From the NCBI RefSeq assembly GCF_000292525.1, contig NZ_AEYF01000021.1, forward strand, positions 62,001 to 126,000: a stretch of 64,000 nucleotides of DNA. Direction: 5' to 3'. Shown in pieces: positions 23,323 through 35,206 of this stretch. Position numbers and translations under genes: made by a program. Origin of the DNA: Rhizobium sp. CCGE 510 (lineage in GTDB: Bacteria > Pseudomonadota > Alphaproteobacteria > Rhizobiales > Rhizobiaceae). Every line of letters begins with the position of its first letter. The first letter of the stretch is position 1. The notes beneath the pieces are model-generated. The model saw nothing but the letters and a program-made list of their open reading frames with translations. It made no database searches and was not told where the DNA came from.

Positions 23323-24384
23323 TCAGTCGCGGATGATCAGCAGATCGGCCGCCATGAAGCGCAGCGTCACCGTTTCGCCGGCCTGCGGCGGGGTGGTGCC
23401 CGGGCTGTTGAACATGTCGAAAGAGATGACGTTGCCGCCGACATTCATGCGGGTGCGGATGACCGAGCCCAGGAAGTGCGCCGAGACGACCTGACCGGTC
23501 AGTGCCGTGTCGCTCTTGACGCTGTCGGAGAGCGAGCCAGCTTCCGGGCGCAGCGCCAGCGAGATGGTTTCGCCGGCCTTATGGGCTGCGACCGACTGCT
23601 TCAGCGTTATGCCTTGATCGCCGATCTGGATGCGGTTGGCGTCGGGGTCGACGACCTTGGCCTCGATGAGGTTAAGCGTGCCGACGAAGGAGGCGACGAA
23701 GCGCGTTGCCGGCGTATTGTAGATCTCGAAGGGCGAACCGATCTGGTCGGCCTTGCCGGCATTCATGACGACGATGCGGTCGGATATCGACAGGGCTTCT
23801 TCCTGATCGTGGGTAACGAAAACAGTGGTGATGCCGAGCTGCTGCTGGATCGCACGGATTTCCTCGCGCAGCGACACGCGGATCTTGGCGTCGAGCGCGG
23901 AGAGCGGCTCGTCGAGCAACAGTACCTGGGGCTTGACGGCAAGCGCGCGGGCAAGCGCGACACGCTGCTGCTGGCCGCCCGACATCTGGTAGGGGAAGCG
24001 GTCGGCGAGGTGATCGAGCTTGATCAGGCCGAGCATCTCCTTGACGCGGGCATCGATCTCAGGCTTGGGAGCGCCGGCAACCTTGAGGCCGAAGGCGACG
24101 TTGTCGTGTACAGTCATATTCGGAAACAGCGCGTAGGCCTGGAACACCATGCCGATGTTGCGCTGGTTCGGCTTCAGCGCGCTCTGGTCCTTGCCGTTGA
24201 TGGTGAGCGTGCCGCCAGTCGGCGTTTCGAAACCGGCGATCATGCGCAAGACGGTCGTCTTGCCGCAGCCGGACGGTCCGAGGAAGGAGACGAACTCACC
24301 CTTCTCGATGTTCATGTTGAAGTTCTTGACGACCTGTACGGGGCCGAAGGATTTCTGAATATTGTTCAATGTGAGAAAGGACAT
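23323..24384 (-). CDS. ABC importer ATPase (PotA/FbpC-like)
   Basis: The 353-residue ATPase shows Walker [10 protein letters not shown] (about 35-43), Q-loop FQAYALFPNMTVHDN, signature MSGGQQQR, Walker [14 protein letters not shown] and VTHDQEEAL. The C-terminal part (about 240-353) carries a TOBE domain with the LALRPEAGSL strand. It is the last gene of the binding protein-permease-permease-ATPase operon on the minus strand. The family covers polyamine, Fe3+ and aminoethylphosphonate importers, so the substrate is not fixed by sequence. Confidence 0.92.
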   Translation of the reverse strand: MSFLTLNNIQKSFGPVQVVKNFNMNIEKGEFVSFLGPSGCGKTTVLRMIAGFETPTGGTLTINGKDQSALKPNQRNIGMVFQAYALFPNMTVHDNVAFGLKVAGAPKPEIDARVKEMLGLIKLDHLADRFPYQMSGGQQQRVALARALAVKPQVLLLDEPLSALDAKIRVSLREEIRAIQQQLGITTVFVTHDQEEALSISDRIVVMNAGKADQIGSPFEIYNTPATRFVASFVGTLNLIEAKVVDPDANRIQIGDQGITLKQSVAAHKAGETISLALRPEAGSLSDSVKSDTALTGQVVSAHFLGSVIRTRMNVGGNVISFDMFNSPGTTPPQAGETVTLRFMAADLLIIRD

Positions 24385-24396
24385 GAGCCAGATACC

Positions 24397-25185
24397 TTAA
24401 GCCTTTGCCGGGCGGGCTTTGCCGACGCGGGAAACGAGGTTGAGCAGGCCCATGCTGAGCCAGGTGATCGAGAAGGCGATGACGGCGAGCGCCGAGGGCT
24501 CATAGGCCTTATTGGCGCCGACAAGCTGCAGGTAAGGGCCGAAGGCCGGACGATTAAGCAGGGCGGCGAATGTGAACTCGCCCATGACGATCGCAAGCGT
24601 GATGAAGGCGCCAGACAGCACTCCGCTCATGACATTGGGGAAAATGCACTTGAACATGATCGTCGTCCAGCGGGCACCGAGGCTCTCAGCGGCTTCCGTG
24701 AGGGTGCGGACGTCGATGGCGCGCATGGCGGTATCGACGGCGCGGTACATGTAGGGCAGGGACAGCGTGATGTAGGAGAAGACCAGCAGGATGTTGGTGC
24801 CGGTCGTGGAGCCGGTCAGCGGCAGGTAGGACGACGAGTTATACATCCTGAGGTAACCGAAGACGATGACGATCGCCGGAATGACCAGCGGCAGCAGCGT
24901 GATGAATTCGACAACCGGGCGCATCTGCGGCAGGCGCAGCCGGACCCAGTAGGCCGTCGGCACGACGAGAAGCATGCCGAAGACGATGGTGAGCAGTGCC
25001 ATCAGCATGGAGTAGCCGAAGGTCTCTCGGAACTGCACGTCTGAGAAGACTGACTCATAGGCATCGAGGCTGTATTCTCCACGGCGCATGCGCAGCGAAA
25101 ACTCGATTGTGCCGATCAATGGAATGACAAAATAGGATGCCCCCAGAATAACGGCGATCCATGCTCCGAGACGTTGAGGTTTCAT
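24397..25185 (-). CDS. ABC importer permease (second)
   Basis: This 262-residue permease has six predicted helices, the first at about 8-28. The docking loop reads LTEAAESLGARWTTIMFKCIFPNVMSG (about 161-187). The start at 25185 overlaps the stop of the upstream permease (ATGA), which marks both as one translational unit. It is followed after 12 bases by the ATPase gene. It is PotC-like in length and layout. Confidence 0.92.
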   Translation of the reverse strand: MKPQRLGAWIAVILGASYFVIPLIGTIEFSLRMRRGEYSLDAYESVFSDVQFRETFGYSMLMALLTIVFGMLLVVPTAYWVRLRLPQMRPVVEFITLLPLVIPAIVIVFGYLRMYNSSSYLPLTGSTTGTNILLVFSYITLSLPYMYRAVDTAMRAIDVRTLTEAAESLGARWTTIMFKCIFPNVMSGVLSGAFITLAIVMGEFTFAALLNRPAFGPYLQLVGANKAYEPSALAVIAFSITWLSMGLLNLVSRVGKARPAKA

Positions 25186-26075
25186 TTCTGCCACCGTTCG
25201 GCGCGCATGCGCAGCATGAGATAAAGGACGTTGGAGACGCCGGTTATGACGATCATGCCGAGCGCGATGGCGTAACCGAGGTTGGCATTGTGCAAAACGT
25301 CGCCGCGGATCTGCGCATAAAGCAGGATCGGCACGATATTGAGCGAGCTGCCGGTCAGCGCGAAGGCCGTGGCAATGGCGCCGAAGGCGTTGGCAAAGAG
25401 TAGCAGCGTCGTGCCGAGCAGGCTTGGCCAGAGGATCGGCAGCGCTACCATCGTCCAGTACTGACGGTTGGTGGCGCCAAGGATTTGCGAGGCTTCGCGC
25501 CATTCCTTTTTCATGCCGTCGAGGGCCGGCGTCAGGATCAGCACCATCAGCGGGATCTGGAAATACATATAGGTGATGGTGAGGCCGAGGAAGGACAGCA
25601 GGTTGAAGCCGGTGCCGTACAGATTGAAGCCAAACCATTCGCGCAGGAAGATCGTCACAAGGCCGGTGCGGCCGAGCGTTGCCAGAAAGGCGAAGGCGAG
25701 CGGCACGCCGGCGAAATTCGAGGCGACGCCTGAGAAGGTCAGAAGCGTCGAGCGCACGGAGGCGGGCAGGCCGCCGAGCACGACGGCCCAGGCAAGGAAA
25801 AAGCCGATCAACGCACCGCCGAGAGCCGACGCCACTGAGACACGGATACTGATCCAGTAAGCGCTCATGATCGAGGGGGTAAAGAGATCGCCGATGTTCT
25901 TCAGCGTGAGGTCGCCCTCGGGGGTCAGGAACGCGCCCGCCACAAGATAAAGTGTGGGGATGATCAGGAACAGCAGGGAGAAGATAATGAAGGGTGCAAT
26001 GCCCAGCCAGTCGATCACGCGATCTCTGTTGATCAAGGGGGCACTGCTCACCATAGGCGTTGAAACCGTGCTCAT
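25182..26075 (-). CDS. ABC importer permease (first)
   Basis: This 297-residue inner-membrane protein has the first helix at about 24-46 and a docking loop of MKKEWREASQILGATNRQYWTMVALPIL type near residues 188-215. It is PotB-like and pairs with the next permease. It lies 73 bp downstream of the binding-protein gene, with a strong hairpin in the gap. The first ATG is used; ribosome-site strength is modest. Confidence 0.9.
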   Translation of the reverse strand: MSTVSTPMVSSAPLINRDRVIDWLGIAPFIIFSLLFLIIPTLYLVAGAFLTPEGDLTLKNIGDLFTPSIMSAYWISIRVSVASALGGALIGFFLAWAVVLGGLPASVRSTLLTFSGVASNFAGVPLAFAFLATLGRTGLVTIFLREWFGFNLYGTGFNLLSFLGLTITYMYFQIPLMVLILTPALDGMKKEWREASQILGATNRQYWTMVALPILWPSLLGTTLLLFANAFGAIATAFALTGSSLNIVPILLYAQIRGDVLHNANLGYAIALGMIVITGVSNVLYLMLRMRAERWQK

Positions 26076-26104
26076 GGAAAAAGCTCATCCTGGGGCGTCG
26101 GAGT

Positions 26105-26136
26105 GAAAAAACCTCCCCGCCTATGCGGCGGGGAGG
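26105..26136 (-). terminator. attenuating hairpin between binding-protein and permease genes
   Basis: The stem CCTCCCCGCC (26112-26121) / GGCGGGGAGG (26127-26136) has a five-base loop and, read on the minus strand, is followed by TTTTTT. It has all parts of an intrinsic terminator but sits inside an operon, so partial read-through is expected, giving more binding protein than permease. Confidence 0.75.
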
Positions 26137-26148
26137 CAGGATCAGGGA

Positions 26149-27252
26149 TTACTTGACGCTGGCGCCGACGACGGAATCCCAGTTCTTGGTGATGGCTTCC
26201 TTGCCGGCAGCCTGCTCTTCGAGCGTCGGGAAGACAGCCTTTTCATAGGCTGCTGCCGGAGGCAGCTTGTCGAGCAGGTCCTTCGGGATCTTGTTGTTCT
26301 TGGCAAGATCGTTGAAGCGGATCGGGTGGCAATAGCCCTTCAGCCAGCCGAGCTGACCCTCGTCGGAATAGAGGTATTCCATCCAGAGCTTGGCAGCGTT
26401 CGGATGCGGAGCGAAGGCGGAAATCGCCTGAACGTATACGCCGGCGACGACGCCTGTTTTCGGAACGACGACCTCGAACGGAGGATTGCCCTTGAGGCTC
26501 TGGCCCCAGGAGAGGGCGTTGTAGTCCCAAGCGACGATGATCGGCGTGGAGCCCTGAGCGAAGGGAGCAGCCTTGCCGACGACAGGCACGAAATTGCCGT
26601 TCTTGTTCAGTTCGGCGAAGAACTTCAGACCTTCTTCGCCTGCCTTGGCCGCGTCACCGCCTGATGCGGAAAGACCAGCGGCATAGACGCCCTGGACAGC
26701 CTGGTTGGCGCTGCGCGGATCGCCTGCGAGGGCGACGGAGTTTGCATAGTCGCTCTTCTTCAGGTCGGTCCAGTCGGCCGGCGATTCCTTGACGAGATCC
26801 TTGTTCACGAGGAACGAGAGAACGCCGTAATAGTCGCCGTACCAGAAGCCTTCGGCATCCTTGGCCGAATCCGGGATCGAATCCCAGGTGGAAACCTTGT
26901 AAGGCTGAATCAGGCCGTCCTTCTTGGCGGATGGGCCGAAGGAGAGGCCGACGTCGATGACGTCAGGCGCCTGCGGGCCGGTGTTGCCCTTGTTCGCCTT
27001 GATGGCTTCTACTTCGTCGCCCGAACCTGCATCCGGGTTCAGTTCGTTGACCTCGAGGCCATACTTTGCTTTGAAACCGGCAATGACATCGCCGTAGCCG
27101 CACCAGTCGTGCGGAAGGGCGATCGTCGTCAGTGTGCCTTCCTTCTTGGCGGCGGCGATAAGTTCAGCGCTCGGCTCGGCAGCGGCAATCGCGGTCGAAG
27201 CCACGATCATCGCAGTAGAGAGCGACAGAAGTCGAGAAAGGTTAGAGATCAC
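26149..27252 (-). CDS. ABC substrate-binding protein (PotD/FbpA-like)
   Basis: The 367-residue periplasmic receptor has a Sec signal (about 1-24, ending AIAAAEP). The mature part has the type II fold pattern: AAAKKEGTLTTIALPHDWCGYGDVI near the start, GSGDEVEA and VIDVGLSFGPSAKKDGL in the first lobe, and MEYLYSDEGQLGWLKGYCHP near the end. The start is GTG with GGAG seven bases upstream. Related proteins bind Fe3+, polyamines or 2-aminoethylphosphonate. It lies between its permeases and an RpiR regulator, whose other neighbours handle amines; an amine substrate is therefore reasonable but unproven. Confidence 0.9.
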   Translation of the reverse strand: MISNLSRLLSLSTAMIVASTAIAAAEPSAELIAAAKKEGTLTTIALPHDWCGYGDVIAGFKAKYGLEVNELNPDAGSGDEVEAIKANKGNTGPQAPDVIDVGLSFGPSAKKDGLIQPYKVSTWDSIPDSAKDAEGFWYGDYYGVLSFLVNKDLVKESPADWTDLKKSDYANSVALAGDPRSANQAVQGVYAAGLSASGGDAAKAGEEGLKFFAELNKNGNFVPVVGKAAPFAQGSTPIIVAWDYNALSWGQSLKGNPPFEVVVPKTGVVAGVYVQAISAFAPHPNAAKLWMEYLYSDEGQLGWLKGYCHPIRFNDLAKNNKIPKDLLDKLPPAAAYEKAVFPTLEEQAAGKEAITKNWDSVVGASVK

Positions 27253-27443: not shown

Positions 27444-28316
27444 TTAGCCCGGTTTGCGGAAGAGCTTGGTCTGCTCGAACAGGCCCTCCAGTGTCTTCAT
27501 CCGTTCCTTCGTCTCGTCCCAGGTCGAATTCTGAACGGCTTCAATCAGCGCCTCGACGATGAAGAGGGTGACGACCGAGGAATCCCAGGCCGACGGCGCC
27601 TCGATCCGAACGCGGAAGGCATGCCGGGCCAGCTTGGCGGCCGGCGAGCCCCACTGGTCGGTGAAGAGAACGATTTCGGCGCCGCGTTTGCGGGCGGCGG
27701 TGGCAAGGCTCACCATCTCCTGTTCATAGCGGCGGATGTCGAAGATGATCAGGATGTCGCCGGCATTCATGTTGAGAACATATTGCGGCCAGCTGCTGGA
27801 GTTCGACGACAGCAGCGTCGTTGCCGGCCGGATTACCTGCATATGAGTGAAGAAATACTCGGCAAGCGCGCCGGTTATGCGGCCGCCGACGAAATAGAGG
27901 CCGCGTTTGCGGTCGGAAAGCAGCGAAGCGACGCTGTCGAAGGTCGCGGTGTCGAGATCTGTCAGCGTCTGACGCAGATTGCCCATGATGGCATCGGCGA
28001 AACGGTTGAGGATATGAGTGCCCGGCGCATTCTGCGCCCAGCGGTCGTGCTTGGTGATCGGGTTGGAGATCGTCGCCTCGACCTCCAGATGCAGATGTGC
28101 CTGAAAGTCCGGATAGCCCTTGAAGCCGAGCTTCTGCACCATACGCACGACCGTCGGCGTCGAGACGCCGGCATTCTCGGCGATCGTGGTGATGCTGCCG
28201 AGACCGGAAACCGGATAATTGTCGAGAAGGCTTTCGGCCAGCTGCTTCTCGGCACGCGTCAGCACCCCGAAATGCGAGTGTATGACGTCCGAAACCGTCT
28301 TCGACGCAACTGTCAC
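27444..28316 (-). CDS. RpiR/MurR-family transcriptional regulator
   Basis: The 290-residue regulator has an N-terminal RpiR helix-turn-helix (LTRAEKQLAESLLDNYP, then SITTIAENAGVSTPTVVRMVQKLGFKGYPDFQ, about 17-70) and a C-terminal SIS domain (about 125-260, with GLYFVGGRITGALAEYF and ILIIFDIRRYEQEMVSLATAARKRGAEIVLFTD) of the sugar-phosphate-binding type. The GTG start at 28316 is preferred: GGGGAG lies nine bases upstream, and an earlier in-frame TTG coincides with a likely -35 box. It is divergent from the amidohydrolase/permease/ligase cluster and lies upstream of the ABC operon on the same strand, so it may control both. Confidence 0.88.
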   Translation of the reverse strand: MTVASKTVSDVIHSHFGVLTRAEKQLAESLLDNYPVSGLGSITTIAENAGVSTPTVVRMVQKLGFKGYPDFQAHLHLEVEATISNPITKHDRWAQNAPGTHILNRFADAIMGNLRQTLTDLDTATFDSVASLLSDRKRGLYFVGGRITGALAEYFFTHMQVIRPATTLLSSNSSSWPQYVLNMNAGDILIIFDIRRYEQEMVSLATAARKRGAEIVLFTDQWGSPAAKLARHAFRVRIEAPSAWDSSVVTLFIVEALIEAVQNSTWDETKERMKTLEGLFEQTKLFRKPG

Positions 28317-28393: not shown

Positions 28394-28432
28394 ACTGTCA
28401 TGAAAAGAAATTTTCAGTCGACGCTTGACAGT
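28394..28432. promoter_or_regulatory. nested inverted repeats, candidate RpiR operator
   Basis: The outer arms ACTGTCA (28394-28400) and TGACAGT (28426-28432) enclose a second inverted repeat TGAAAA (28401-28406) / TTTTCA (28411-28416). RpiR-family sites often contain TGAAA...TTTCA half-sites. The position between two divergent promoters fits an operator. Confidence 0.55.
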
Positions 28433-28453
28433 GGCCGAAACCTGAAGAATTCT
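28425..28453 (+). promoter_or_regulatory. candidate promoter of the amidohydrolase gene
   Basis: TTGACA (28425-28430) is followed after 17 bases by AATTCT (28448-28453). The -35 hexamer overlaps the right arm of the inverted repeat at 28426-28432, so regulator binding there would block it. Confidence 0.5.
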
Positions 28454-28498
28454 TTTCTTCATCAGGAATTTGTTAACGGATAAGGAGTGGCGCCTTTG

Positions 28499-29266
28499 GT
28501 GCTGGCCAGGCCGAAAATCCTCAGCGAAGCGGATGGCGACTGTGTCGGTGTCGAGCGTATCCGTGGCCAGAGCCCGGTGCTGCTGATCTGCGAGCACGCT
28601 TCGAATGTGCTTCCGGCGTATTTCGGCGACCTTGGACTGCCCAGCGAAGCACTCGCGAGCCATATTGCCTGGGACCCGGGCGCCCTCGCGGTCGCCCGCG
28701 GCATATCGGACGGGCTCGACGCGACGCTCGTTCACCAGCGGTTCTCCAGGCTTATCTACGACTGCAACCGGCCGCCCAGTTCACCTGGCGCCATGCCTGA
28801 AGCAAGCGAGATCTACGCCATTCCCGGCAACAAGGATTTGACCGCCGAAGAACGCCTGGCGCGTACCGACGCGCTCTACGTGCCTTTCCACGACGCGATT
28901 CGCGGGCTGATCCGCGATCGCCGGGCGAGGGGACAAGACAGCATCATCGTGACGATCCACAGCTTCACGCCGGTCTATCACGGTCGCGAACGTGTCGTCG
29001 AACTCGGCATATTGCACGATGAGGACAGCCGGTTCGCCGACCTTATGCTGAAGGCAGCGGCCGAGGCGCCGCTTTACAGGACGGAACGCAACGAGCCTTA
29101 CGGGCCCGAGGACGGCGTGACCCACACGCTGATCCTGCACGGGCTTTCGAACGGCTTGCGCAATGTGATGATCGAGGTCCGCAACGACCTCATCGCAGAC
29201 GATGTCGGCCAAGGGGTCATGGCCGACTATCTAAAAGGGCTGCTCCAGCAAAGCCTGGACGCCTGA
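28499..29266 (+). CDS. N-formylglutamate amidohydrolase family enzyme
   Basis: This 255-residue zinc-type hydrolase of the FGase family has LICEHASNVLPAYFGDLGL near residues 28-46 with the conserved Glu-His pair, DPGALAVARG, IYDCNRP, and TIHSFTPVYHGRERVVELGIL with the second metal His near 160, and NVMIEVRNDLI at the end. Family enzymes release glutamate from N-formylglutamate. Here it heads a cluster with a glutamine-synthetase-like ligase, so it may instead remove glutamate from a glutamylated intermediate; this is inference. The start is uncertain: AAGGAG at 28482-28487 suits TTG 28496 or GTG 28499, while GTG 28487 overlaps the ribosome site. Confidence 0.85.
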   Translation: MLARPKILSEADGDCVGVERIRGQSPVLLICEHASNVLPAYFGDLGLPSEALASHIAWDPGALAVARGISDGLDATLVHQRFSRLIYDCNRPPSSPGAMPEASEIYAIPGNKDLTAEERLARTDALYVPFHDAIRGLIRDRRARGQDSIIVTIHSFTPVYHGRERVVELGILHDEDSRFADLMLKAAAEAPLYRTERNEPYGPEDGVTHTLILHGLSNGLRNVMIEVRNDLIADDVGQGVMADYLKGLLQQSLDA

Positions 29267-29387
29267 CATAAAAAGAAGACCCGAGGGAGCAGTCTAACTG
29301 CGAACGTCCGTATGGCGCGAAGGCCGCGGACAATTTGGCACTGAACCGGCCCGCAATCCCGCGGCCGATCGTGAACAGGGGGAAGTC

Positions 29388-30950
29388 ATGTCGGATTATT
29401 CCGAACTGGACAAGAAGCAGGATGTGCACATCCTGCATTCCATGGGTTATGCCCAGGAACTCGAACGACGCATGAGCTCGTTCTCGAACTTTGCAGTCTC
29501 ATTCTCCATCATCTGCATCCTCTCCGGGGGCATCAATTCGCTGGCGCAGGCGACCTCCGGTGCCGGCGGAGCGGCGATCGGCATCGGCTGGCCGGTGGGA
29601 TGCTTCATATCGCTCGTCTTTGCCATTGGCATGGCGCAGATCAGTTCGGCCTATCCGACGGCCGGCGGCCTCTACCACTGGAGCTCGATCCTCGGCAATC
29701 GTTTCACCGGCTGGGTGACCGCCTGGTTCAACCTGCTCGGTCTCGTCACCGTGCTCGGCGCCATCAATGTCGGCACCTATTATTTCTTCATGGGGTCGTT
29801 CGGCACCGGCTATTTCGGACTGACCGACACGACAGCGGTGCGCATCATCTTCCTCGTGGTGATCACCGGCGCGCAGGCGCTCGTGAACCACATGGGCATC
29901 GGGCTGACCGCGAAGCTGACCGATTTCTCGGGTTATCTGATCTTCGCGACCGCGATCGCGCTATCGGCCGTCTGCCTCATCGCAGCGCCCTCCTACGAGA
30001 TCGGCCGCCTCTTCACCTTCGCCAACTATTCCGGCGAAGCCGGCGGCAACGTCTGGCCTTCCACCTCGGGCGCCTGGGTCTTCCTGCTCGGTCTGTTGCT
30101 GCCGATCTATACGATCACCGGCTATGACGCCTCGGCGCATACCTCGGAAGAGACCGTCAAGGCTGCCGAGTCGGTCCCGCGCGGCATGGTCGCGTCCGTC
30201 CTGTGGTCGGCGCTTTTCGGCTACATCATGCTGTGCGCCTTCGTTCTGATGCTGCCGAACATGGACGATGCGGCAAAGCAGGGCTGGAACGTGTTCTTCT
30301 GGGCGATGGACAGCCAGGTGAATCCGATCGTCAAGGACATCCTCTATTTTGCCATCCTCGTCAGCCAGTGGCTGTGCGGCCTTGCGACCGTCACCTCGGT
30401 CTCGCGCATGATCTTCGCCTTCTCGCGTGACGGCGGTCTGCCAGCCTCCAAGGCACTGGCGAAGGTCAGCCCGAAATACCGCACGCCAGTGGCGGCGATC
30501 TGGACCGGCTCGATCCTGTCGGTACTTTTCGTTTGGTTCACCTCACTCGACTTCATGAAAGTCGGCGACACGCCGGTCTATACGATCGTCGTCTCGTGCA
30601 CGGTCATCTTCCTGTTCTTCTCCTTTGCGATCCCGATCACGCTCGGCCTTTTCGCCTGGGGTACGTCGAAGTGGGACAAGATGGGTCCGTGGAACCTCGG
30701 TGAAGGGGTCTTCAAGCTCTTTGCCGTGCTCACGGTCATCGCGATGATCCTGATCTTCATTCTCGGCATCCAGCCGCCGAACGGTGCTGCGCTTTACGTT
30801 ACCGTTGGCTTCCTCTTGTTGACCGCGATCGTATGGTTCGGTTTCGAGAACCGGCGCTTCAAGGGGCCGCCGATCGGCGCAGATGTGGCAAAGCGCCAGG
30901 CCGACATTGCGGCCGCCGAAGCAGCCGTCGGCGAAAGAGGCGAACACTAA
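29388..30950 (+). CDS. APC-family amino acid/amine permease
   Basis: This 520-residue inner-membrane transporter has about 12 predicted helices. The N-terminus (ELERRMSSFSNFAVSFSIICILSGGINSL) and the AAIGIGWPVGCFISLVFAIGMAQISSAYPTAGGLYHW motif are typical of the GABA/choline/polyamine-type branch of the APC superfamily. It lies between the amidohydrolase and the glutamine-synthetase-like ligase, as PuuP-type permeases do in gamma-glutamylation operons, and probably imports the amine that is glutamylated. The start ATG follows AGGGGGAAG. Gaps of 121 and 153 bp to its neighbours leave room for internal promoters. Confidence 0.9.
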   Translation: MSDYSELDKKQDVHILHSMGYAQELERRMSSFSNFAVSFSIICILSGGINSLAQATSGAGGAAIGIGWPVGCFISLVFAIGMAQISSAYPTAGGLYHWSSILGNRFTGWVTAWFNLLGLVTVLGAINVGTYYFFMGSFGTGYFGLTDTTAVRIIFLVVITGAQALVNHMGIGLTAKLTDFSGYLIFATAIALSAVCLIAAPSYEIGRLFTFANYSGEAGGNVWPSTSGAWVFLLGLLLPIYTITGYDASAHTSEETVKAAESVPRGMVASVLWSALFGYIMLCAFVLMLPNMDDAAKQGWNVFFWAMDSQVNPIVKDILYFAILVSQWLCGLATVTSVSRMIFAFSRDGGLPASKALAKVSPKYRTPVAAIWTGSILSVLFVWFTSLDFMKVGDTPVYTIVVSCTVIFLFFSFAIPITLGLFAWGTSKWDKMGPWNLGEGVFKLFAVLTVIAMILIFILGIQPPNGAALYVTVGFLLLTAIVWFGFENRRFKGPPIGADVAKRQADIAAAEAAVGERGEH

Positions 30951-31103
30951 GCAACGAGGCTTCCCTCTCGAATGATGGGGCCGCATTCGCGGCCCCATCA
31001 GCGGTCCAACGAAAAGGCATCCGGCCGGAAAAAGCTGGCGATGGTATGCCGTTTCGTTGCCCCGGTTTCCGATTTCCCCATTTCTCGTTCAGGCGGATCA
31101 ACA

Positions 31104-32468
31104 ATGAGCAATTACACAATCGACGATCTCAGGAAGGATGTTGCCGAAGGGCGCATCGATACGGTTCTGGCCTGCCAGGTTGACATGCAGGGCCGGCTGA
31201 TGGGAAAGCGCTTTCAAGCGGAATTTTTCCTCGAAAGCGCCTGGAAGGAAACGCACAGCTGCAACTACCTGATCGCCACCGACATGGAGATGGAGACCGT
31301 CTCCGGCTATAAGGCGACGAGTTGGGAAAAGGGCTACGGCGACTATACGATGAAGCCGGATCTGGCGACGCTGCGCCGTATCCCCTGGCTCGACGGCACG
31401 GCGCTGGTGCTCTGCGACATGCTCGACCATCACACCCATGAAGAGGTCGCCCATTCGCCGCGCGCGATCCTGAAGAAGCAGGTGAAGCGCCTGGAAGACA
31501 TGGGCATGAAGGCCTACATGGCCTCCGAGCTCGAATTCTTCCTGTTCGACCAGAGCTACGAGACGGCGCAGGCATCCGGCTACCGCAACCTCAAGCTCGC
31601 CAGCGCCTATAACGAGGATTACCACATCTTCCAGACGACCAAGGAGGAAGAGGTGATGCGGGCGATCCGCACCGGGCTGCAAGGCGCCGGCATTCCGGTC
31701 GAGAATTCCAAGGGCGAGGCTTCCGCCGGCCAGGAGGAAATCAACGTGCGCTACGCCGACGCGCTGGCCATGGCCGACCGGCACGCGATCATCAAGAACG
31801 GCTGCAAGGAGATCGCCTGGTCGAAGGGCAAGGCGATCACCTTCCTGGCCAAGTGGAATTACAACGCCGCCGGCAGTTCCTCGCATATCCATCAGTCGCT
31901 CTGGAGCCTGGAGGAGAAGCCGCTATTCTTCGACCATACCGGCAAATACGGCATGTCGCCGCTGATGCACAATTACGTCGCCGGGCTTCTCGCTCATGCG
32001 AGTGAGATCACCTATTTCCTGGCGCCGTACATCAACTCCTACAAGCGCTTCATGGCCGGCACCTTTGCGCCGACCAAGGCGATCTGGAGCAAGGACAACC
32101 GCACTGCCGGCTACCGGCTCTGCGGCGAGGAGACGAAGGGAATTCGTATCGAGTGCCGCGTCGGCGGCTCAGATCTCAATCCCTATCTCGCCTTTGCTGC
32201 GCTGCTTGCGGCCGGCATCGACGGGATCGAGAACAAGCTGGAACTCGAAGCCCCCTTCGTCGGCGACGCCTATGGCGGCAAGGGTGTGCGCGAAATCCCG
32301 CGCACGCTGCGCGCGGCCACCACCGAAATGACGGAATCGGCAATGCTGCGCAAAGCCTTCGGCGATGACGTGATCGACCATTACACCCGCGCCGCCGAAT
32401 GGGAGCAGGAAGAATACGACCGCCGCATCACCGATTGGGAAGTGGCGCGCGGTTTCGAAAGAGCTTAG
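31104..32468 (+). CDS. glutamine synthetase-family ligase (gamma-glutamyl-amine synthetase candidate)
   Basis: The 454-residue protein has the beta-grasp N-terminus (about 15-100) and the catalytic core with metal Glu in ASELEFFLF (about 142-150), AGQEEINVRY, the H-N loop NYNAAGSSSHIHQSLW, NSYKRFMAGTFAPTKAIW, and SKDNRTAGYRLCG with the ATP-binding Arg. The DGSS loop that holds ammonium-binding Asp in true glutamine synthetase is absent; the matching place reads SWEKGYGDYTMKPD. The regulatory adenylylation Tyr loop is also missing. These traits fit PuuA/IpuC-type enzymes, which join glutamate to an amine using ATP. The substrate is unknown; ethanolamine-like amino alcohols fit the neighbouring dehydrogenases. 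Confidence 0.88.
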   Translation: MSNYTIDDLRKDVAEGRIDTVLACQVDMQGRLMGKRFQAEFFLESAWKETHSCNYLIATDMEMETVSGYKATSWEKGYGDYTMKPDLATLRRIPWLDGTALVLCDMLDHHTHEEVAHSPRAILKKQVKRLEDMGMKAYMASELEFFLFDQSYETAQASGYRNLKLASAYNEDYHIFQTTKEEEVMRAIRTGLQGAGIPVENSKGEASAGQEEINVRYADALAMADRHAIIKNGCKEIAWSKGKAITFLAKWNYNAAGSSSHIHQSLWSLEEKPLFFDHTGKYGMSPLMHNYVAGLLAHASEITYFLAPYINSYKRFMAGTFAPTKAIWSKDNRTAGYRLCGEETKGIRIECRVGGSDLNPYLAFAALLAAGIDGIENKLELEAPFVGDAYGGKGVREIPRTLRAATTEMTESAMLRKAFGDDVIDHYTRAAEWEQEEYDRRITDWEVARGFERA

Positions 32469-32488
32469 TACGGATCGGGGGTTGCTGC

Positions 32489-32623
32489 CCCTCACCCTCA
32501 CCCTCTCCCCGTAAAAACGGGGAGAGGGGACGTGCCCCGCGAGACCTTAGCGAGGAACGGAGAGGTTGCGGCATATCCCCTTCGCCCCGCAAGCGGGGAG
32601 AAGGTGCCGGCGCGGATGAGGGG
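32489..32623. repeat. rhizobial palindromic repeat cluster, copy C
   Basis: A perfect 12-bp hairpin CCCTCTCCCCGT (32501-32512) / ACGGGGAGAGGG (32517-32528) is followed by a second element at 32582-32623 with the stem CCCCGC-AA-GCGGGG and the AAGGTGCCGGC...GATGAGGGG tail seen at 5353 and 18647. It fills the gap between the ligase and aldehyde dehydrogenase genes. Confidence 0.8.
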
Positions 32624-32672
32624 CTCATGCCCTCGACGAAATTTTTGATCAATACGAGGACGGAAATCGATC

Positions 32673-34058
32673 ATGGCAATGATCCAATGCATTTCACCGA
32701 TTGACGGGTCGGTCTACGCCGAGCGCGCCGCACTATCTCTCGATGCCGCCAAGGACGTGGTGGCGCGGGCCCGCAAGGCGCAGAAGGCCTGGGCGAAACG
32801 GCCGCTCGAAGAGCGCGTGCAGCTTGTGCTGAAGGGTACGGCGCGGCTGAACGAGATGTCAGACGTCGTCGTGCCGGAGCTTGCCTGGCAGATGGGCCGG
32901 CCGGTCAAGTATGGCGGCGAATATAAGGGTTTCAACGAGCGCTCGAATTATGTCGCTTCGATTGCGGCGGATGCATTAGCTCCGCTCGTCGTCGAGGAGA
33001 GCGAGCGTTTCGAGCGCCGCATCGAGCGCGAAGCGCATGGCGTCGTCTTCGTCGTCGCGCCATGGAACTATCCCTATATGACGGCGATCAACACGATCGC
33101 ACCGGCACTGATGGCCGGCAATACGGTGGTGCTGAAACATGCCTCGCAGACGCTCCTGGTCGGCGAGCGACTGGTACAGGCCTTCATCGAGGCTGGCGTT
33201 CCCGAGGACGTGTTCCAGAACGTCTTCCTCGATCATCAAACGACGTCGGCGCTGATTGCCGCCGGCAGCTTCAATTTTGTCAATTTCACTGGATCGGTCG
33301 AAGGCGGACGGTCGATGGAACGGGCTGCCGCGGGCACCTTCACCGGGCTCGGCCTCGAACTCGGCGGCAAGGATCCGGGTTATGTGATGGAGGACGCCGA
33401 TCTCGAGGCGGCCGTCGATACGCTGATGGACGGCGCGACCTATAATTCCGGCCAATGCTGCTGCGGCATCGAGCGCATCTATGTGCATGAATCGCTCTAT
33501 GACACCTTCGTCGAGAAGTCGGTCGCCTGGGTGTCGAACTATAAGCTCGGCAATCCGCTCGATCCCGATACGTCGCTTGGGCCGATGGCGCATAAGCGCT
33601 TTGCCAAAGTGGTGCGCGAGCAGATCGACGAGGCGGTTTCCAAGGGTGCCAAGGCGCTTGTCGACCCCAAGCTTTTCCCCCAGGATGACGGTGGCGCTTA
33701 TCTGGCACCGCAGGTTCTCGTCGATGTCGACCATTCCATGGCCTTCATGCGCGAGGAGACCTTCGGTCCGGCAGTCGGCATCATGAAGGTGAAGAGCGAC
33801 GAGGAGGCACTCGCTTTGATGAACGACAGCCAGTACGGACTGACGGCCTCGCTCTGGACCGGCGATGTCGAGCGGGCAGCGCGGCTCGGCCGCGAGATCG
33901 AAACCGGCACCGTTTTCATGAACCGCGCGGACTATCTCGATCCGGCGCTCTGCTGGACCGGCGTCAAGGAGACCGGTCGCGGCGGCTCGCTGTCGATCAT
34001 CGGCTTCCAGAATCTGACGCGTCCGAAATCCTTTCATTTGAAGAAAGTCACAGCATGA
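32673..34058 (+). CDS. aldehyde dehydrogenase family protein
   Basis: This 461-residue NAD(P)-dependent dehydrogenase has Asn133 in VAPWNYPYMTAI, the nucleotide-binding FTGSVEGGRSM segment, Glu229 in LELGGKDPGYV, and the catalytic cysteine in NSGQCCCGIERI (Cys263 by alignment with N-x-G-Q-x-C). The C-terminal EETFGPAVGIMKV motif is present. It overlaps the iron alcohol dehydrogenase gene by four bases. In the cluster it would oxidise the aldehyde made by the alcohol dehydrogenase to an acid, as PuuC or IpuI do on gamma-glutamyl aldehydes. The specific substrate is inferred. Confidence 0.92.
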   Translation: MAMIQCISPIDGSVYAERAALSLDAAKDVVARARKAQKAWAKRPLEERVQLVLKGTARLNEMSDVVVPELAWQMGRPVKYGGEYKGFNERSNYVASIAADALAPLVVEESERFERRIEREAHGVVFVVAPWNYPYMTAINTIAPALMAGNTVVLKHASQTLLVGERLVQAFIEAGVPEDVFQNVFLDHQTTSALIAAGSFNFVNFTGSVEGGRSMERAAAGTFTGLGLELGGKDPGYVMEDADLEAAVDTLMDGATYNSGQCCCGIERIYVHESLYDTFVEKSVAWVSNYKLGNPLDPDTSLGPMAHKRFAKVVREQIDEAVSKGAKALVDPKLFPQDDGGAYLAPQVLVDVDHSMAFMREETFGPAVGIMKVKSDEEALALMNDSQYGLTASLWTGDVERAARLGREIETGTVFMNRADYLDPALCWTGVKETGRGGSLSIIGFQNLTRPKSFHLKKVTA

Positions 34059-35206
34059 GCAGCAACATCACCGCAAATTGGAGCTATCCGACATCCGTCA
34101 AGCTCGGCCGGGGCCGCATCAAGGAACTGGCCGACGCCTGCAAGAGCCTCGGCATCAAAAAGCCGCTTCTCGTCACCGACCGCGGTCTCGCCTCGATGGC
34201 GATCACTAAAAATGCGCTCGATATCCTCGAAGATGCCGGTCTTGGCCGGGCGATCTTTGCCGATGTCGACCCGAACCCGAACGAAAAGAACCTCGAGGCC
34301 GGCGTCAGGGCTTTCAAGGACGGCGGGCATGACGGCGTCGTCGCCTTCGGCGGCGGCTCAGGTCTCGACCTCGGCAAGTGCGTCGCCTTCATGGCCGGCC
34401 AGACGCGGCCGGTTTGGGACTTCGAAGATATCGGCGACTGGTGGACGCGTGCGAACCTCGAGGGTATCGCCCCGATCGTCGCGGTGCCGACGACGGCGGG
34501 CACCGGTTCGGAAGTCGGCCGCGCCAGCGTCATCACCAATTCGCAAACGCATGTGAAGAAGATCATCTTCCATCCGAAGTTTCTGCCTGGCGTCGTCATC
34601 TCCGATCCGGAACTGACGGTCGGGATGCCGAAGATCATCACCGCCGGCACCGGCATGGATGCTTTCGCCCATTGCCTGGAGGCCTATTCCTCGCCTTTCT
34701 ATCACCCGATGTCGGCCGGCATCGCGCTTGAAGGCATGCGGCTCGTCAAGGAATTCCTGCCGCGCGCCTACAGGGAGGGCACGGATCTCGAAGCCCGCGC
34801 CAATATGATGGCCGCCGCCGCCATGGGCGCTGTTGCCTTCCAGAAGGGGCTCGGCGCCATCCATGCGCTGTCGCACCCGATCGGCGCCGTCTACAACACC
34901 CATCACGGCATGACCAATGCGGTTGTCATGCCGGCGGTGCTGCGCTTCAACCGCAAGGCGATCGAGGAGAAGATCGGCCGTGCTGCTGCCTATCTCGGTA
35001 TCTCGGGCGGTTTCGACGGCTTCTACGATTATGTGCTGAAGCTCCGCTCCGAGCTCGGCGTGCCGGAGACGCTGTCGGCGATGGGAATTGCGGCTGACCG
35101 GATCGACGAATTGTCGGCGATGGCGATCGAAGATCCGAGTGCGGGCGGCAACCCGGTTGCGATGACGCTCGAAAATACCAAGGCGCTTTTCAAGGACTGC
35201 TTCTGA
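34055..35206 (+). CDS. iron-containing alcohol dehydrogenase
   Basis: The 383-residue group III alcohol dehydrogenase has the NAD-binding GGGSGLDLGKCVAF (about 96-109), PTTAGTGSEVGRASVITN, and the iron ligands Asp and His in GTGMDAFAHCLEAYSS, then HALSHPIGAVYNTHHG near residue 270-285, which brings two more His. It is translationally coupled to the aldehyde dehydrogenase by ATGA overlap, so the two enzymes probably act in sequence, alcohol to aldehyde to acid. This pairing suggests that the pathway substrate has a hydroxyl group, such as an amino alcohol. Confidence 0.93.
   Translation: MSSNITANWSYPTSVKLGRGRIKELADACKSLGIKKPLLVTDRGLASMAITKNALDILEDAGLGRAIFADVDPNPNEKNLEAGVRAFKDGGHDGVVAFGGGSGLDLGKCVAFMAGQTRPVWDFEDIGDWWTRANLEGIAPIVAVPTTAGTGSEVGRASVITNSQTHVKKIIFHPKFLPGVVISDPELTVGMPKIITAGTGMDAFAHCLEAYSSPFYHPMSAGIALEGMRLVKEFLPRAYREGTDLEARANMMAAAAMGAVAFQKGLGAIHALSHPIGAVYNTHHGMTNAVVMPAVLRFNRKAIEEKIGRAAAYLGISGGFDGFYDYVLKLRSELGVPETLSAMGIAADRIDELSAMAIEDPSAGGNPVAMTLENTKALFKDCF

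Follow-up and report, generated by a model that had tools for sequence, protein, structure and literature searches.

A predicted ethanolamine glutamylation operon with an exchanged transporter in Rhizobium sp. CCGE 510

Which compound is handled by a run of genes whose annotations name only a glutamine synthetase family protein, an amino acid permease and an N-formylglutamate amidohydrolase? Such a run lies in a 64-kb stretch of DNA from Rhizobium sp. CCGE 510 (contig NZ_AEYF01000021.1), which was analyzed as a whole and is called the window below. By profile searches of its open reading frames, the plus strand encodes, in order, a formylglutamate amidohydrolase-family protein (FGase), an APC permease, a glutamine-synthetase-like ligase, an aldehyde dehydrogenase (ALDH) and an iron-containing alcohol dehydrogenase (Fe-ADH), and the gene for an RpiR-family regulator is divergent from them. 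A preliminary description, made from the letters alone, had listed these genes, all of which were recovered by Pfam matches, and had proposed that an amino alcohol is gamma-glutamylated and that the two dehydrogenases act on the glutamylated substrate. We regard this chemistry as the likeliest reading and very probably right, and ethanolamine as the likeliest substrate, with gamma-glutamylglycine as the product, given the kinship with EtoX operons and the exchange of transporters described below; as an interpretation overall, the preliminary description is partly supported.

We therefore consider the run, with high confidence, to be a gamma-glutamylethanolamide-type operon for ethanolamine catabolism. 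Ethanolamine would enter via the APC permease and be joined to glutamate by the ligase with ATP, giving gamma-glutamylethanolamide, whose hydroxyl group would be oxidized by the Fe-ADH to an aldehyde; the ALDH would convert this aldehyde into gamma-glutamylglycine, from which the FGase-family hydrolase would free glycine and regenerate glutamate. Acting from the intergenic region that the two divergent operons share, RpiR would control the catabolic genes as well as the rpiR-ABC operon to which it belongs, probably via two palindromes.

Exchange of the transporter in Eto-type operons

The ligase has at least 569 relatives, the best 80 of which form our named set, a choice that favours close kin; their neighbours were typed by tblastn with 16-18 window and reference proteins, so that other transporters or regulators would escape. 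RpiR, FGase, a recognized transporter, ligase, ALDH and Fe-ADH are found together in 64 of the 80 loci, indicating that the arrangement is not due to chance. The permease slot is taken by an EtoX-type TRAP transporter, an Eat-type permease or a window-type APC permease in otherwise related operons. For instance, plasmid 1 of Paracoccus denitrificans PD1222 has the Phaeobacter order (RpiR, FGase, three TRAP genes, ligase, ALDH, Fe-ADH), with a TRAP binding protein that scores 567 bits against PDB 4uab and 4xf5 (identical sequences, which we take to be Csal_0678). In Agrobacterium tumefaciens MEJ076 the slot holds an Eat-type permease, with 364 bits just under the cut-off of 381.75 of TIGR00908, the 'ethanolamine permease' model, and the Agrobacterium genomes examined (other than C58) have an Eat-type permease where the window has an APC permease. 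Sinorhizobium sp. 8-89 carries a TRAP transporter (540 bits to 4uab) in the slot that the APC permease occupies in its close relatives Ensifer sp. IC4062 and S. psoraleae, the ligases being 85-86% identical to that of the window. On a ligase tree made by a quick method (79 ligases, omitting the 9 of the 80 named loci without a recognized transporter and adding 7 earlier loci and the window), transporter type requires 13 changes against a minimum of 2; if only well-supported branches are kept, at least 4 changes are needed for APC, 4 for TRAP and 3 for Eat.

In addition, each enzyme of the window is closely related to those of EtoX-bearing operons (identities for the P. denitrificans locus L012: ligase 60%, FGase 50%, ALDH 66%, Fe-ADH 70%, RpiR 50%; for the Sinorhizobium locus L124: 86, 58, 84, 84 and 71%, respectively). 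Since an otherwise constant operon swaps three transporters, of which one has been measured (EtoX) and one is assigned by a model (Eat), the window is tied to ethanolamine, and this three-way swap is the best evidence here that its APC permease and enzymes would handle ethanolamine. The primary paper on C. salexigens is reportedly that of Vetting et al. 2015.

The published systems agree with this assignment as far as the excerpts cited here (PMC10132767, PMC9397018 and PMC6529630) go. In Phaeobacter sp. MED193 the genes are ordered RpiR, GGAH, EtoVWX, ETAGA, GAADDH, GETADH, EtoX binds ethanolamine (Kd 7.9 μM), levels of the operon proteins increase on phosphorylethanolamine, and the authors describe the genes as close relatives of the ones demonstrated in C. 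salexigens and A. tumefaciens C58 (PMC10132767). The window has the same regulator family, likewise divergent, the same gene order and the same four enzyme roles, whereas an APC permease sits in the slot of the EtoVWX TRAP transporter, and an ABC operon lies behind RpiR, none being mentioned for MED193 in the excerpt. The pathway of C. salexigens is composed of PF00120, PF00465, PF00171 and PF05013 (PMC9397018, Table 2), all of which are encoded together in the window, and its transporter is of the TRAP type (PMC10132767). The GlnA4 cluster of Streptomyces coelicolor resembles the window in a ligase without the ammonium residues and a predicted formylglutamate-family hydrolase, but has an annotated short-chain dehydrogenase in place of the Fe-ADH and the repressor EpuRI in place of RpiR (PMC6529630). 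The window thus holds, with good support, a rhizobial version of an already known pathway of ethanolamine glutamylation, in which the transporter has been exchanged; a weak literature search found no publication naming this APC-type variant.

The pathways for putrescine (Puu) and isopropylamine (Ipu) also proceed by permease, glutamylating ligase, oxidation and deglutamylation, but include amine oxidase or hydroxylation steps, use other hydrolase families and start from a substrate that is not an amino alcohol. This shared logic, together with locus L205, in which a relative of the window-type APC permease lies by a distant ligase and an FAD oxidoreductase, would fit a similar route here for a diamine or alkylamine, whose hydroxyl group would be made by an enzyme encoded elsewhere. 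We consider such a route very unlikely, because none of the five genes encodes an amine oxidase or monooxygenase, the ligase reaches 196.4 of the 650 bits required by the gamma-glutamylputrescine synthetase model, and the operon exchanges transporters with ethanolamine ones.

The ligase and the predicted last hydrolase

The ligase stays far below the NCBIfam cut-offs for GlnA (TIGR00653, 262.6 of 429.15 bits) and GSIII (233.5 of 469.6 bits). The two PDB sequences closest to it are 11zs, at 672 bits, and 5dm3, at 632 bits, the latter presumably from C. salexigens. The preliminary description had noted the lack of an ammonium loop, and alignment with GlnA of the same genome bore this out: the FDGSS loop (D50/S53) and the GYFP segment carrying Y179 are absent, and in the E327 flap F replaces E (GTFAP), the residue numbers being those of the Salmonella enzyme given in PMC6529630 and placed on the ligase by motif. 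The S. coelicolor gamma-glutamylethanolamide synthetase GlnA4 does not conserve D50, Y179 and E327 either, and F is described at E327 as in the window ligase (PMC6529630). Judged by these scores and residues, the ligase is not a glutamine synthetase, the GlnA ammonium site being lost.

Regarding the hydrolase, the host genome has four PF05013 genes. One of them passes the HutG model TIGR02017 (394 bits against a cut-off of 278.75) and sits between hutU and hutH, with hutI and hutF adjoining. The window FGase had no NCBIfam match at 1e-5, TIGR02017 included, indicating that it is not HutG, and is 28% identical to the HutG of the same genome over 147 aa; its identification as HutG was therefore rejected. 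It is 60% identical to Atu2144 (PDB 2odf), and in an FGase tree, whose bootstrap had not settled and in which HutG and L080 are on very long branches, a 26-row clade (100/99) unites it with Atu2144 and with 11 of the 14 FGases that belong to TRAP-type clusters. The family name of PF05013 would suit a quite different explanation, in which the FGase is the N-formylglutamate deformylase of histidine breakdown, the ligase a minor ammonium-assimilating glutamine synthetase and the neighbourhood incidental. This is scarcely credible, given the separate HutG in the hut operon, the distance of the window FGase from it, the loss of the ammonium site in the ligase and the fact that the FGase travels with the ligase across loci.

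The likeliest, predicted role of the FGase-family enzyme is thus that of the last hydrolase of the ethanolamine pathway. The preliminary description had assigned it this deglutamylating role, which stands, and had called such a role new, which does not, since publications on C. salexigens and S. coelicolor already describe this route with a gamma-glutamylglycine amidohydrolase of the FGase family, and for Phaeobacter it is published as an operon induced on phosphorylethanolamine; in S. coelicolor, the gamma-glutamylglycine hydrolase was proposed to be a member of the formylglutamate amidohydrolase family (PMC9397018, PMC6529630; for Phaeobacter PMC10132767; all in excerpt).

Occurrence, candidate operators and points against the assignment

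Within the genus, the ligase was found in 35 of 36 other genomes searched, and all 9 loci fetched from these 35 matches have the whole window layout, ABC genes included. Of the 11 matches from the same order, all of which were typed, 7 have a TRAP transporter, 1 an Eat-type permease and 1 an APC permease, while 2, one of them on a 7.9-kb contig, showed no transporter. The canonical Eut route was also tested in the host genome, and a search that included an E. coli positive control gave no EutB match there.

Two palindromes lie between RpiR and FGase and are the sole sites with at most one mismatch to their pattern in the window. At least one site (up to 2 mismatches) was present in 60 of 67 RpiR-FGase regions of the named set, while shuffles gave a mean of 1.9 (max 5) and random stretches of the same loci a mean of 1.85 (max 5). 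A pair spaced by 41-44 bp occurred in 55 of the 67 regions and in none of the shuffles (by type: APC 34/34, Eat 13/13, TRAP 7/19); of the 19 TRAP-type regions, 12 had at least one site and 7 had none. In an earlier set a site was seen in 22 of 29 regions, the 7 misses including APC-type L103 and Eat-type L050. The motif was read from part of these same regions and many loci are close kin, so the shuffles show its strength and not its independence. When the region upstream of the gene for the ABC binding protein was searched for a similar operator, the best site had 3 mismatches. The pair is a candidate and probable RpiR operator, and a strong lead.

Several observations weigh against the ethanolamine assignment. 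Of 289 alphaproteobacterial genomes drawn more evenly, 31 (the host included) had the ligase at E<=1e-130, and around the 30 other loci Fe-ADH was found in 23, ALDH in 15, FGase in 8 and RpiR in 8, with an EtoX-type TRAP transporter in 10, an Eat-type permease in 1 and the window-type APC permease in 0; 6 of the 30 had no other convincing query gene at all. The ligase alone is thus no proof of the pathway. The family of the APC permease gives no tie to ethanolamine (best NCBIfam match TIGR00907, 201 of 598 bits): TIGR00908 was not among its three NCBIfam families at E<=1e-5, leaving it outside the Eat type, and it has no PDB sequence relative at E<=0.001. Moreover, relatives of this permease (54-57%) adjoin more distant ligases (30-33%), one of them also an FAD oxidoreductase. 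In the FGase tree, the 26-row clade leaves out 3 of the 14 FGases from TRAP-type clusters, and likewise the FGases encoded next to Eat permeases in L050 and L099 and next to the APC permease in L103, mostly with no settled placement; the host paralog in L082 (35%) is also outside it, again with no settled position. The published gamma-glutamylglycine hydrolase step rests on prediction and induction, and not on an enzyme assay, in the excerpts cited. In Rhizobium sp. CCGE 510 itself, we infer all enzymatic steps, the substrate of the permease, the binding of RpiR and the co-transcription of rpiR with the ABC genes.

One further point concerns the substrate itself: PDB 4xf5, whose sequence is that of 4uab, presumably holds 2-amino-1-propanol, so alaninol may also be handled. 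The enzymes would suit any primary amino alcohol, and the same chemistry could have a close relative of ethanolamine, such as L-alaninol or serinol, as its main natural substrate, with gamma-glutamyl-alanine or -serine as the product. We find this improbable, since the binding and induction published for related operons, as excerpted, favour ethanolamine, and the slot is also held by permeases that match the ethanolamine permease model, just under its cut-off.

A relative of the window APC permease and a distant ligase are accompanied by Fe-ADH and ALDH in L204, by the FAD oxidoreductase mentioned above in L205, and by RpiR, Fe-ADH and a class-I glutamine amidotransferase in L206; these three look like sister glutamylation pathways for other amines. 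L014, on a plasmid of Rhizobium sp. CB3060, combines a 51% identical ligase with an aminotransferase, an FGase, an APC permease and an N,N-dimethylformamidase-like gene, and probably glutamylates another amine. A second copy in genome G298 (L083) has a ligase 50% identical to that of the window and a distant Eat-like permease (27%) nearby. On the plasmid pAA03 of Aminobacter aminovorans (L009), typed as conjugative, an FGase-ligase-ALDH-Fe-ADH set without a permease is followed by bhcRABCD of the beta-hydroxyaspartate cycle and preceded by genes for an LLM-type flavin oxidoreductase, FAD enzymes and a flavin reductase; this set may supply the cycle with glycine or glyoxylate derived from an amine. 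A bhcC relative is also near L157.

Gene layout and the neighbouring ABC importer

The features of the locus are collected in Table 1. The host genome comprises 6.9 Mb, and among the named loci fetched its ligase is closest to those of R. leguminosarum Tri-43 and Norway (99%). The FGase could also start 3 codons downstream, as annotated in R. leguminosarum, and the RpiR start was placed by the annotated length in that species (CHY08_RS29705, 873 bp). The ALDH stop and the Fe-ADH start share ATGA at 34055-34058, an overlap that the preliminary description had pointed out. ATGA, GTGA or TTGA at the ALDH stop is needed for such an overlap and was found in 51 of 69 related loci with ALDH and Fe-ADH, judged from the ALDH stops alone. 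The ALDH has no PDB sequence relative at E<=1e-80. Between ligase and ALDH (32480-32680), G+C-rich palindromic repeats of a type common between rhizobial genes were read from the sequence, presumably of the RIME family.

Table 1. Features of the predicted ethanolamine operon and the divergent rpiR-ABC genes, in window positions
Feature	Position	Strand	Basis or remark
FGase-family hydrolase, predicted gamma-glutamylglycine amidohydrolase	28487..29266	+	PF05013 148.6 bits; GTG start as listed
APC permease, predicted ethanolamine importer	29388..30950	+	PF13520 164.4 bits
Glutamine-synthetase-like ligase, predicted ethanolamine gamma-glutamylase	31104..32468	+	PF00120 342.9 bits
ALDH, predicted gamma-glutamyl-aminoacetaldehyde dehydrogenase	32673..34058	+	PF00171 395.8 bits; position conserved
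Fe-ADH, predicted gamma-glutamylethanolamide dehydrogenase	34055..35206	+	PF00465 161.3 bits; position conserved
RpiR-family regulator	27444..28316 (open frame to 28391)	-	PF01380 (SIS) and PF01418 (HTH_6)
ABC substrate-binding protein, SBP_bac_6	26149..27252	-	PF13343 92.9 bits
ABC permease subunit	25182..26075	-	NCBIfam PhnU, CysT and PotB models, each below cut-off
ABC permease subunit	24397..25188	-	PF00528
ABC ATP-binding subunit	23323..24384	-	nearest TIGR03265 PhnT2, 424 bits vs 458 needed
Predicted RpiR operator 1, TGAAAAGAAATTTTCA	28401..28416	.	palindrome
Predicted RpiR operator 2, TGAAGAATTCTTTTCTTCA	28443..28461	.	palindrome, 42 bp from operator 1

The four-gene ABC importer operon behind RpiR (23323-27252, minus strand) was not mentioned in the preliminary description. 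Its binding-protein gene is present in 52 of the 80 best named loci, and of these 52, in which it lies beside the full operon, 34 carry the APC permease, 13 an Eat-type permease and 5 a TRAP transporter. The idea that the ABC importer stands in for TRAP was set aside, the two coexisting in those 5 loci. Its presence in Rhizobiaceae does not depend on which ethanolamine transporter the operon has, so its substrate is probably another compound. The nearest NCBIfam matches of the binding protein and the ATPase are models of aminoethylphosphonate transporters, below cut-off, and the binding protein also has weak matches to 2-aminoethylphosphonate-binding proteins.

Relatives of the ABC genes (67-79%) were found away from Eto genes in 6 other genomes of the class draw that lack a window-type ligase. 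A phosphatase-type or phosphoester-hydrolase gene was identified in 3 of these 6 stretches, namely a HAD hydrolase in L198, a divergent PehA-like phosphoric/sulfuric ester hydrolase in L199, and an inositol-monophosphatase-family gene about 4.5 kb from the ABC relative in L203. L199 and L200 each have two tandem copies of the binding-protein gene (70-75% to that of the window). These findings hint, tentatively and with the odds against it, that the RpiR divergon of Rhizobiaceae joins ethanolamine catabolism to ABC import of a phosphorylated head-group compound, for which phosphoethanolamine, glycerophosphoethanolamine or 2-aminoethylphosphonate would be our guesses. Against it, no phosphatase-type gene was identified among the few genes searched in L200, L201 and L202, and no phosphatase or phosphodiesterase was identified beside the ABC genes of the window. 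If it were true, one regulator would serve both lipid-derived forms, ethanolamine and the phosphorylated head group.

The exchange of transporters offers a natural test, in which an APC permease occupies the slot of ethanolamine transporters that have been measured (EtoX) or assigned by a model (Eat). What the cluster means is that ethanolamine, a fragment of membrane lipids, is most likely tagged with glutamate and oxidized to glycine, and metabolic models of how nitrogen is obtained from membrane lipids would be misled by gene annotations such as those quoted at the outset.

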